A stretch of DNA of 64,000 bases from an uncultured Gammaproteobacteria bacterium (GTDB lineage: Bacteria; Pseudomonadota; Gammaproteobacteria; Pseudomonadales; Azotimanducaceae). Shown in pieces: positions 44,307-46,543 of this stretch. A program made the translations under genes and the position numbers. The notes beneath the pieces were generated by a model. It did not search any database, was not told where the DNA came from, and saw nothing but the letters and a program-made list of their open reading frames with translations. The DNA is taken from the NCBI GenBank assembly GCA_913050215.1, contig CAJXBG010000007.1, positions 1-64,000 of the forward strand, in the 5' to 3' direction. Each line of letters begins with the position of its first letter. Position 1 is the stretch's first letter.

Positions 44307-44807
44307 CTATTTTCTCGCTTCTTTTCTACCTCTGCGGTCTTCGAAATTTCCTCGGTGCTTCTCTCGCCGAGAAAGGAACTTCAGCGCTTTTTCCCTGTCT
44401 TCGAGTTTCATCTCCTTCAATATCGTACTCATATTTTCATGCGTAACGACCTGAAACTTGTTTGAGGCGGATCTGAGATCCTTCAATGCAAGATTGAGTG
44501 CTTTCTCATCAAGAGGCTCTTCCATAATGGCGGAGGAGAGCCTTTGTCTCGCATCGCGCATTTCTTGTCGAACAGTGCGGAGGGACCCTGAACGTTCTTT
44601 TAATTGCGGGCGTAGTTGTTTTCGTTTTTCATCACTCAGGTTTCGTAACATCCAGCCCATATGGTTTGGCAAATGCCCTGGCGGCCCGCCAAAAACTGAC
44701 CTGCCAATCAATCCACCAATGAACAACAGATTTAACGCCAGCGAACAAATCAGCAGAATAATGACGACACGGTTCTTCTTTTTCTTTGTCTGTAGATCTT
44801 GATCCAT
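44307..44807 (-). CDS. Periplasmic heavy-metal-sensor-like (CnrX/Spy type) membrane protein
   Basis: A 166-residue protein with a short basic cytoplasmic tail, a transmembrane helix (about 13-36) and a long charged helical periplasmic domain with Arg/Glu-rich heptads. The pattern matches the heavy-metal-resistance family that includes CnrX, ZraP and CpxP/Spy-like chaperones. A Met/His-poor composition argues against assigning a metal. The ATG overlaps the previous stop (TAATG), so it is coupled to the anti-sigma-like gene. It probably modulates the sigma/anti-sigma pair, but that is inference from context. Confidence 0.75.
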   Translation of the reverse strand: MDQDLQTKKKKNRVVIILLICSLALNLLFIGGLIGRSVFGGPPGHLPNHMGWMLRNLSDEKRKQLRPQLKERSGSLRTVRQEMRDARQRLSSAIMEEPLDEKALNLALKDLRSASNKFQVVTHENMSTILKEMKLEDREKALKFLSRREKHRGNFEDRRGRKEARK

Positions 44808-45268
44808 TATTCCTGCTCCTCATTTTCCGACACCAGGCCCATGACATAAATGTCCTCTTCCCACTCAAAAAGCTGATCGTCTGATCCTGTCTCCACCACG
44901 GAACCAAGATAGACTCCAGTTAGCAACGGTATGCAGGCTGCGATCGCTGGCCGCCAAATGACAAAAGATCCGTTCGCATAGGGTCCGAGCCAATGCCACA
45001 GTTTGGAAAACAGGTCATCCCGGTTCTTTTCCGCGCGATTGACGGTTGTCAGTGAAATTTGGTGGAGGATATCCGCTTTCAGATTTGTCGATTGAGCCAC
45101 GATATCTGCATCCAGTGCTTCATCGAGACGGCGCAATTCGTTGATTATTTCTACGGCATCGCGTTCAGCTTCGAGAAATATCAGAGCGGCGTGTCTGTCA
45201 GCTTCCGGCCATCGCTCGCTCCGGGTGCCGTAAGCTTCTATCAGTTCTTTGAACCTTTGAATGTTCAT
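44807..45268 (-). CDS. Anti-sigma-factor-like membrane protein
   Basis: A 153-residue protein. The N-terminal half (about 1-60) is cytoplasmic and helical, with RWPEADRHAALIFLEAERDA. One hydrophobic segment lies at about 100-124, and the periplasmic tail is acidic. The family accompanies ECF sigma factors and CnrX-like sensors in other proteobacteria. There is no zinc HxxxCxxC motif, so it is not a ZAS anti-sigma. It starts 1 nt after the sigma gene and overlaps the sensor gene. Binding to the adjacent sigma factor is inferred from position. Confidence 0.6.
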   Translation of the reverse strand: MNIQRFKELIEAYGTRSERWPEADRHAALIFLEAERDAVEIINELRRLDEALDADIVAQSTNLKADILHQISLTTVNRAEKNRDDLFSKLWHWLGPYANGSFVIWRPAIAACIPLLTGVYLGSVVETGSDDQLFEWEEDIYVMGLVSENEEQE

Positions 45269-45269
45269 A

Positions 45270-45872
45270 TTATGACTTACCGTCTTCGGTTAATAATTTT
45301 CTTAGTTTTAATCTGCCTCGAGAGAGCAAAGATTCGAGCGCGTCTACGCTAACCTCCATGATATGGGCGGCATCCTTATTCGAAACACCTTGATAGTGAC
45401 ACATGATGATGGCGCTGCGCTGACGTTCAGGCAGCGTCATGAGCGCTTTTTTCACATCATGGTCCCGATTTTTTTTCGCTAACTCATGCTCTGGTTCGTC
45501 ACTCCCCGACGTGGCGATGCCGTGCGGGCGACCAGACACTGACGTAAGGTGCAGGCTTTCTTCTGTTTCATAAATCTCAGACGAATCCTGTATAAACCGG
45601 TTATTTTTCCTAAAATAGTCAATGCACAGATTGTGGGCGATGTTATGCAGCCAAGTGGATAGCTTAGATGCCTCTGGTTTGTAACTGTCAGCACGCGTCC
45701 ATAACCTGAGAAACACTTCTTGTGTAATGTCTTCGGCATTAGCAGCGTTACCAATCATTCTGACGGTATATCGGTTGATGCCAGATAAATGCATATTCAA
45801 CAATTTTTTGAAAGCAGCCTGGTTCTTTCTCGCAACCAGCTTGACCAATGCTGCTTCAGATTTCTCGACCAA
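45270..45872 (-). CDS. ECF-type RNA polymerase sigma factor
   Basis: A 200-residue sigma-70 family group 4 factor. Region 2 has AEDITQEVFLRLW and STWLHNIAHNLCIDYFRK; region 4 has LPERQRSAIIMCHYQGVSNKDAAHIMEVSVDALESLLSRGRLKLR. The linker between them is longer than average, with a Ser/Glu-rich stretch. It starts with TTG preceded by a strong AGGAG 6-7 nt upstream that overlaps the EF-hand gene's stop. It sits second in a four-gene minus-strand operon. Confidence 0.92.
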   Translation of the reverse strand: MVEKSEAALVKLVARKNQAAFKKLLNMHLSGINRYTVRMIGNAANAEDITQEVFLRLWTRADSYKPEASKLSTWLHNIAHNLCIDYFRKNNRFIQDSSEIYETEESLHLTSVSGRPHGIATSGSDEPEHELAKKNRDHDVKKALMTLPERQRSAIIMCHYQGVSNKDAAHIMEVSVDALESLLSRGRLKLRKLLTEDGKS

Positions 45873-45881
45873 TCAGAACTC

Positions 45882-46415
45882 CTACTCAAAATTCCGGTGA
45901 AAGCCACGATCACCTCTTTTACCCATACCTCTTTTACTCATACCTCTTTTACTTATACCTCTTTTACTCATACCTCGGGGGGGTTTAACTTCGTCGGCGC
46001 TGATGTAGCCGTCTTGGTTGTCATCCATCCGGTTAAATGCGCCAAGCTTGATCTCTTCCCGTGACAAACCACCATCACCGTTAGCATCCATTGCGTTGAA
46101 ATGTTCGGTAAGCTTCGCTTGACGTTTTGCCATTTTGTTTGCTTTCTCTGCTTCGCGTTGCTCGTGCCTTGACTTGATTTGCTCTGTAATTTCCGCAAGT
46201 GTGACGACGCCATCGCCGTCTTTATCTGCCTTATCAAAAGGTGATTTTCGACCAGGTTGGAATTCATCAAGAGAAACCTGCCCATCGCCATCTAAGTCTA
46301 GATGATGAATAAATCTCTCACCTTGTGCTCCGTCACTTTTTGCTATGGCTAACGTAGGGATGCTCGATGAAACAATGATGATTGCGATCGCTTTGAGTGG
46401 TGAACGGGTTTTCAT
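45882..46415 (-). CDS. Secreted four-EF-hand calcium-binding protein with RG(M/I)SK repeats
   Basis: A 177-residue exported protein: a signal peptide (about 1-25), then four canonical EF-hand loops at 40-51, 64-75, 110-121 and 131-142. The basic C-terminus repeats RGMSK or RGISK units at about 147-167, encoded by a 15-bp tandem repeat. Likely a periplasmic calcium-binding protein. It is the first gene of the operon with an ECF sigma factor 9 nt downstream, an unusual promoter-proximal position. ATG with AGGA 9 nt upstream. Confidence 0.88.
   Translation of the reverse strand: MKTRSPLKAIAIIIVSSSIPTLAIAKSDGAQGERFIHHLDLDGDGQVSLDEFQPGRKSPFDKADKDGDGVVTLAEITEQIKSRHEQREAEKANKMAKRQAKLTEHFNAMDANGDGGLSREEIKLGAFNRMDDNQDGYISADEVKPPRGMSKRGISKRGMSKRGMGKRGDRGFHRNFE
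45913..45972. repeat. Four 15-bp tandem repeats in the EF-hand gene
   Basis: Four units of CCTCTTTTAC(C/T)(C/T)ATA at 45913, 45928, 45943 and 45958, differing at one or two positions. They keep frame and encode the repeating RG(M/I)(S/G)K peptide. Confidence 0.9.
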
Positions 46416-46543
46416 TTTTTGCGTCCTGTATAGATTTAATATGTGAAGTCGCGTGACTTCAAATATTTGTACGCTTTACCCCTGAGAAATCCGTCGATCT
46501 AGCTGAAAGAATTTCTCGTCGTCGCAAGAATCGTCAGTAAATT

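Follow-up and report, generated by a model that had tools for sequence, protein, structure and literature searches.

Four tightly packed genes on the minus strand of a 64,000-nucleotide stretch from an uncultured Gammaproteobacteria bacterium of the family Azotimanducaceae (contig CAJXBG010000007.1, positions 1 to 64,000; hereafter the window) encode an EF-hand protein, an extracytoplasmic function (ECF) sigma factor, a 153-residue membrane protein and a protein of the CnrX/NccX family. The locus raises the question of whether the four products form one signalling circuit and, if so, what the circuit responds to and what the EF-hand protein does in it. The reading we favour, with a probability of roughly 60%, is a self-activating envelope-stress circuit of all four genes. 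We infer binding between the 153-residue protein and the sigma factor; the protein would keep the sigma factor at the inner membrane, while its acidic C-terminal tail would reach the periplasm and be controlled there by the membrane-anchored CnrX-family protein. An envelope signal, which in Caulobacter is low calcium or acid, would relax this hold, and the freed sigma factor would transcribe its own operon from a GACGGAW-N14-CGT promoter (W, A or T). The exported EF-hand protein, as the first product, would bind periplasmic divalent cations, calcium being the probable one, and exert a mild feedback on the circuit, acting as both output and feedback. The features on which this reading is built are the following.

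46470-46495, minus strand: predicted operon promoter, GACGGATTT-N13-CGTA, with one spacer base more than most relatives have
45882-46415, minus strand: EF-hand gene, 177 amino acids, four Pfam EF-hand stretches, counterpart of cabp of Caulobacter
45270-45872, minus strand: ECF sigma factor gene, 200 amino acids, TTG start with AGGAG six bases 5' of the start, counterpart of sigV
44807-45268, minus strand: membrane protein gene, product a probable anti-sigma factor, 153 amino acids, G-x5-WP near the N-terminus
44894-44950, minus strand: hydrophobic segment of the 153-residue protein, probably membrane-spanning, residues 107-125, followed by the acidic tail
44307-44807, minus strand: CnrX/NccX family (PF13801) gene, 166 amino acids, product periplasmic and probably membrane-anchored

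The arrangement described in the initial annotation was borne out, with junctions of 9 nt between the EF-hand and sigma factor genes, 1 nt between the sigma factor gene and that of the 153-residue protein, and a 1-nt overlap between the latter and the last gene. Against Pfam, the EF-hand protein matched EF-hand_5 (5.4e-21, four stretches), the sigma factor matched Sigma70_r2 (4.4e-19) and Sigma70_r4_2 (8.5e-13), and the last protein matched Metal_resist (PF13801, 1.3e-23), this being the single PF13801 match in the source genome. The N-terminus of the EF-hand protein was judged by eye to be signal-peptide-like, and the protein stayed below the NCBIfam cut-offs for LanM (lanmodulin; 39.8 against 135 bits) and XopAW (54.6 against 120 bits).

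Conservation of the four-gene order

Synteny of the four genes, chosen beforehand as the point on which the proposed operon could fail, was found to be strongly and deeply conserved. With the window's 153-residue protein as a single-sequence query, 15 of 38 genomes gave a match, among them that of the window, and at all 15 family loci first read (again including the window's) the EF-hand, sigma factor, 153-residue protein and Metal_resist genes stood on the same strand and in the same order. All four genes were seen at 12 of these loci by blastp with the window sequences alone, and at the other three through profiles, for which 10 to 15 of these very loci had supplied the sequences. Two family members with the full operon (G017 and G021) were overlooked by the single-sequence search, and with these added the full operon was present in 17 of the 25 own-family genomes. 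The remaining eight include two genus-mates with only shortened or broken remnants, one genome (G010) with no operon gene within 1.4 kb before syd, and one (G014) whose locus has a Metal_resist-like piece at its edge; two of the eight loci were cut at contig ends and two genomes were without a syd match. In the two genus-mates (L277 and L278) the state of the operon is decay: it lies at the same place, the genes of the sigma factor and the 153-residue protein are lost, and the rest are shortened or broken. A meaningful joint loss of sigma factor and anti-sigma factor was considered for these two genomes and rejected, since the genes left behind are not intact.

Wider searches were made with a 14-row profile of the 153-residue protein (profile A1), and 30 loci were read at each level, including that of the window. 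At phylum level 54 of 398 genomes gave a match to the profile, and at order level 30 of 293. The window's locus aside, the full four-gene order was found at 24 of 29 loci at phylum level and at 19 of 29 at order level, where three loci (L046-L048) duplicate loci counted before and three others (L072-L074), with a sigma factor gene and neither a Metal_resist nor an EF-hand gene, look like false matches. Within a Caulobacter-like genus 45 of 61 genomes matched, and 29 of the 30 loci read were full and the other one was truncated at the end of its contig. A scan of the named genomes with a sigma factor profile was also performed, and the best 80 loci among the matches listed comprised 25 full loci, 45 with the sigma factor, 153-residue protein and Metal_resist genes and no EF-hand gene close by (at a few, L108 for instance, because too little sequence was available), and a further ten that miss another gene owing to a contig end, the open reading frame rule or detection. 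The total came to 112 full loci from several proteobacterial lineages, of which 99 were distinct by sigma factor sequence; three Rhizobium loci scored as full (L147, L152 and L162) probably encode a different type of EF-hand protein (see L146 and L136 for comparison).

The flanking genes of the window's operon are a hemJ-like gene (UPF0093) upstream and, downstream, syd (identified by Pfam) and an aroA-like gene (by eye). At the 15 family loci, which are short (about 1.5 kb on each side), syd was present in 12 and hemJ in 6.

The promoter element and its possible targets

An ECF promoter, sought upstream of position 46415 as the initial annotation had proposed, is predicted at 46470-46495, and this element ends about 55 bases 5' of the EF-hand start codon. 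The family motif (GACRGRTTT, 12-13 bases, CGTA) was read off the upstream stretches of the 15 family loci, and all promoter expectations were taken from first-order random sequences. The family pattern stood before the EF-hand gene at 14 of these 15 loci (0.08 expected). Usable upstream stretches were available for 96 of the 99 distinct loci, and GACGGAW-N14-CGT was found before the EF-hand gene in 65 of them against 0.0 expected, other spacings from 9 to 20 occurring in only 0 to 4 of the 96. Outside the family from which the motif had been derived the count was 60 of 82 (0.0 expected), and inside it 5 of 14, a low figure because several members have GACAG or GACGGG. With a looser pattern, 83 of the 96 loci carried the element against 3.45 expected.

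The element was also found where the EF-hand gene is not adjacent. Its loose form stood before the sigma factor gene at 29 of 54 such loci, mostly of Rhizobiaceae (3.3 expected), and in Burkholderia GACGGAW-N14/15-CGT was located about 0.8 kb upstream of the sigma factor gene at all 18 loci (0.1 expected). The element thus tracks the sigma factor gene from lineage to lineage, as expected of a promoter that the sigma factor reads itself, and this distribution suggests that GACGGAW-N14-CGT would be read by the operon's own sigma factor. At two of the Burkholderia loci (L155 and L163), inspected by eye, the element and the sigma factor gene are separated by a gene whose tryptophan-rich repeat product is probably secreted. 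In the window, an inverted repeat with 7-base arms and a 4-base loop is present at 46444-46461, close to where the operon transcript is predicted to begin.

The promoter also bears on the idea that the EF-hand gene merely sits beside the sigma factor gene and is otherwise unconnected with it. Some lineages have no EF-hand gene, or have a different secreted protein instead, and in the accessible part of a 2026 Caulobacter study cabp and sigV are reported to be transcribed separately (PMC13171946), all of which this idea would accommodate. It is nevertheless very improbable: the genes are neighbours at 112 loci from widely separated lineages, a promoter of the sigma type precedes the EF-hand gene, and cabp is under SigV control according to the same part of that study (PMC13171946).

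Possible targets outside the operon were sought with the same pattern. Four sites were found in the window's genome, that of the operon and three others, and the reversed pattern likewise gave four; with one mismatch allowed there were 24 sites, against 24 and 35 on the two strands of the reversed control, and eight relatives had 33 sites in all against 43 for the control. Of 17 sites examined, four were those of the window's genome (the operon's included) and 13 came from relatives; many of the 17 were overlapped by long open frames. One of the sites in the window's genome (L221, 1650-1675; G000 C71) has a spacer resembling that of the operon and lies 219 bases before an HlyD-family gene with a gene resembling those of the resistance-nodulation-division (RND) type behind it (by eye). 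The strict pattern was found before none of 29 related pump genes, the anchor being possibly off at a few short-flank loci, and a conserved efflux-pump regulon was rejected on this count and because the number of sites equals that of the reversed control. A second site (L195/L222; G016 C3:36485-36509) differs in 1 of 25 bases from the operon promoter of its own genome and precedes a gene resembling those of TonB-dependent receptors (by eye); it and the HlyD/RND-like site are leads only. A third (L201; G007 C82:22572-22596) starts 65 bases before the gene of a small, probably secreted Arg/Glu-rich repeat protein.

The 153-residue protein and the CnrX-family protein

The 153-residue protein of the window matched no Pfam family up to E = 1. 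Its single hydrophobic stretch spans residues 107-125, and the 28 residues after it form an acidic tail. Among the 99 distinct loci, G-x5-WP is kept in 91 and the hydrophobic segment has a mean Kyte-Doolittle value of at least 1.6 in 88, while the tail has a net negative charge at all 99, and likewise at 51 of 51 loci without an EF-hand gene. The initial annotation had called this protein non-ZAS, which agrees with the finding of the HxxxCxxC zinc (ZAS) motif in 0 of the 99 distinct loci, the window's included. The structure model of the protein had a mean predicted local distance difference test (pLDDT) value of 72 and a predicted template modelling (pTM) score of 0.41, with pLDDT above 90 in each of the first five ten-residue blocks.

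The general plan of the operon resembles that of CnrYXH and NccYXH of Cupriavidus, in which an ECF sigma factor, a small single-span membrane protein with a short periplasmic tail and a membrane-anchored CnrX-family protein are encoded together. It differs in that the CnrX metal ligands are missing from their positions, the 153-residue family matches no chain of the PDB, efflux genes are absent from the operon and an EF-hand gene is added. The last protein matched NccX (2e-6) and CnrX (2.4e-4), so the proposed CnrX-like sensor stood as a member of the CnrX/NccX family, but not as a carrier of the CnrX metal site. At the aligned columns of what we take to be the CnrX ligands (His42, His46, His119 and Met123 in the numbering assumed here), none of the 99 proteins had all four and none had two or more; singly, His42 was found in 2, His46 in 5, His119 in 0 and Met123 in 1. 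When a slip of two columns was allowed, a histidine near 119 was present in 39 of 99, with a methionine near 123 in addition in 8, and histidines near both 42 and 46 in 1. The column of CnrX Glu63, which could be placed roughly, was mostly arginine. The alignment to CnrX is distant, and a different metal site is possible.

These counts bear on a CnrYXH-like system in which heavy metals (Ni, Co or Cu) would be sensed and an efflux pump driven. Such a system is improbable, given that no CnrX ligand pair is kept at the aligned columns in any of the 99 proteins, the strict promoter pattern is missing before the 29 related pump genes, exact sites in the genome are as many as in the reversed control (four each), and the operon itself holds no pump gene. 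It does draw on the family membership of the last protein, on the similar-spacer site before the HlyD/RND-like pair in the same genome, on the 8 and 39 proteins counted above with two-column slip, and on a core in Caulobacteraceae (L139) that is directly preceded by a gene similar, by eye, to those of heavy-metal P-type ATPases. CnrX-type heavy-metal sensing was accordingly dropped as the leading reading, and nickel- or cobalt-type sensing is unsupported.

The EF-hand protein and the Caulobacter CaBP-SigV pair

The counterpart of the first two genes is the CaBP-SigV pair of C. vibrioides (CCNA_02838/CCNA_02837), published in 2026. In the part of the study that was accessible, to which all statements on this pair refer, CaBP is a periplasmic protein with three EF hands encoded next to SigV, and the cabp promoter was mapped by rapid amplification of cDNA ends to GGAAA-N13-CGTTCA (PMC13171946). 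SigV raises cabp, which is reduced when SigV is absent, and the pair is induced by egtazic acid (EGTA) and by acid, this calcium and acid response being reported for Caulobacter only (PMC13171946). Loss of CaBP changes little in sigV or in the cabp promoter under EGTA, overexpression of CaBP raises sigV, and the membrane link between CaBP and SigV is drawn as a question mark (PMC13171946).

Both systems have an exported EF-hand gene (export judged by eye here) directly 5' of an ECF sigma factor gene on the same strand, and the promoters share a form, which is GGAAA-N13-CGTTCA there and GGAWN-N13-CGT widely here (PMC13171946, as far as accessible). GGANN-N13-CGT stands before the EF-hand gene in the present loci, with a spacer one base longer in the window. 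They differ in that only the pair is named in the accessible text, with separate transcripts, while four packed genes are found here (PMC13171946). All four genes were present in C. vibrioides DSM 9893, OR37 and T5M6, the last on a more distant sigma factor branch (70% identity). The gap between the EF-hand and sigma factor genes is 34 nt in T5M6 and 26 nt in DSM 9893 and OR37, the latter fitting the distances of 58 and 87 nt given in the accessible part of the study (PMC13171946). The promoters of DSM 9893, OR37 and T5M6 read GACGGAAT...CGTT, GACGGAAA...CGTT and GACGGAAA...CGTT, respectively, and an exact GGAAA-N13-CGTTCA was found in a Caulobacter sp. (L117). Genes 3 and 4 are candidates for the missing membrane link of CaBP-SigV. 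In a literature search from which subscription papers were mostly outside, no description of the four-gene operon was found, nor any mention of CCNA_02836, CCNA_02835 or CC_2750. The operon of RpoE8 in Azospirillum brasilense is similar in its annotation as a sigma factor, a hypothetical protein and a periplasmic heavy metal sensor; in the accessible part of that report no EF-hand gene is named, the operon appears only as raised by RpoE6 overexpression, and the likeness is one of annotation (PMC12826043).

The role of the EF-hand protein was judged from its distribution. In Burkholderia and at many of the Rhizobiaceae loci read, the core occurs without an adjacent EF-hand gene, a statement about adjacency, the search having covered the loci themselves. 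On a sigma factor tree of 149 rows the EF-hand label changes nine times, at least seven of the changes being forced by well-supported branches, and none of 500 label shuffles gave a number as low as nine. The label stands on both sides of deep forks of this tree, in which some unlabelled rows are contig ends (such as L097) and to which a long-branch warning applies. The presence of the EF-hand gene looks old, with loss or replacement in Burkholderia and many Rhizobiaceae. In the window, a 15-base tandem repeat in 4.3 copies (45912-45976) falls within the 3' end of the EF-hand coding sequence and encodes a basic RGMSK-like repeat tail.

The EF-hand protein is a possible calcium sensor, and in the strongest form of this idea it would be the primary one: calcium levels in the periplasm would govern its binding to, and release from, the acidic tail or the CnrX-family protein, and the sigma factor would be switched in this way. 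Its gene is the first of the operon and is widely conserved with it, the CnrX ligands are missing in the sensor-like protein so that another protein may bind the metal, and sigV goes up on CaBP overexpression according to the accessible part of the Caulobacter study (PMC13171946). A primary sensor of this kind is, however, unlikely: the core occurs without an adjacent EF-hand gene (within the limit of adjacency given above), the acidic tail is retained at 51 of 51 loci lacking that gene, and loss of CaBP has hardly any effect on sigV or, under EGTA, on the cabp promoter in the same part of the study (PMC13171946). Because the core is intact without the EF-hand gene, and in view of the Caulobacter data, it is likelier that the EF-hand protein is mainly an output of the sigma factor with feedback on it and not an obligatory sensor. 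The calcium- or divalent-metal-responsive envelope circuit put forward in the initial annotation is therefore upheld in part, the C. vibrioides pair responding to EGTA and acid (PMC13171946, accessible part), but with the EF-hand protein unlikely to be its obligatory sensor.

Several observations weigh against the self-activating four-gene circuit. The module is patchy, with no match in 16 of the 61 genomes from the Caulobacter-like genus, and it decays in the window's genus-mates L277 and L278. Even by the loose pattern the promoter element is missing at 13 of the 96 EF-hand loci, and it is absent at 5 of 5 related order-level loci without an EF-hand gene (L062-L064, L066 and L067). For the 153-residue protein, the best 19-residue stretch falls below 1.6 on the Kyte-Doolittle scale in 11 of 99, and profile A1 matched no PDB chain with E up to 5, among chains that we take to include CnrY (entry 4cxf), very distant kinship being possible. 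A fold search with the structure model gave two matches, the best with a meaningless E of 7.9, leaving no tie in sequence or fold between this protein and a known anti-sigma domain. The grounds for calling it a probable anti-sigma factor of the membrane are therefore its place in the gene order, its topology and its co-occurrence with the other genes. In Caulobacter, where the C. vibrioides strains read were DSM 9893, OR37 and T5M6, the accessible part of the study reports that cabp promoter activity also rises in excess calcium, that cabp and sigV are transcribed separately with the sigV promoter inside cabp, and that SigT is implicated (PMC13171946).

With these points weighed, we regard the four-gene circuit as real, conserved and so far incompletely described, consisting of the scheme of ECF sigma factor, membrane anti-sigma factor and CnrX-family protein with an EF-hand gene added. 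A further suggestion, tentative and on the whole doubtful, is that it represents a widespread and previously unnamed calcium-tuned class of envelope-stress systems in Proteobacteria, in which the CnrX-family protein would have given up its metal site and the EF-hand protein of the same operon would report periplasmic calcium to the CnrX-family protein or to the acidic tail. For the gap left in the accessible part of the 2026 Caulobacter study, between a periplasmic calcium protein and a cytoplasmic sigma factor, two candidate proteins encoded directly downstream are offered (PMC13171946), and these testable candidates for the missing link are the main value of the analysis. The promoter signature predicts where the circuit would be switched on in many other bacteria, and what had seemed a local pair is suggested to belong to a circuit spanning several proteobacterial lineages.

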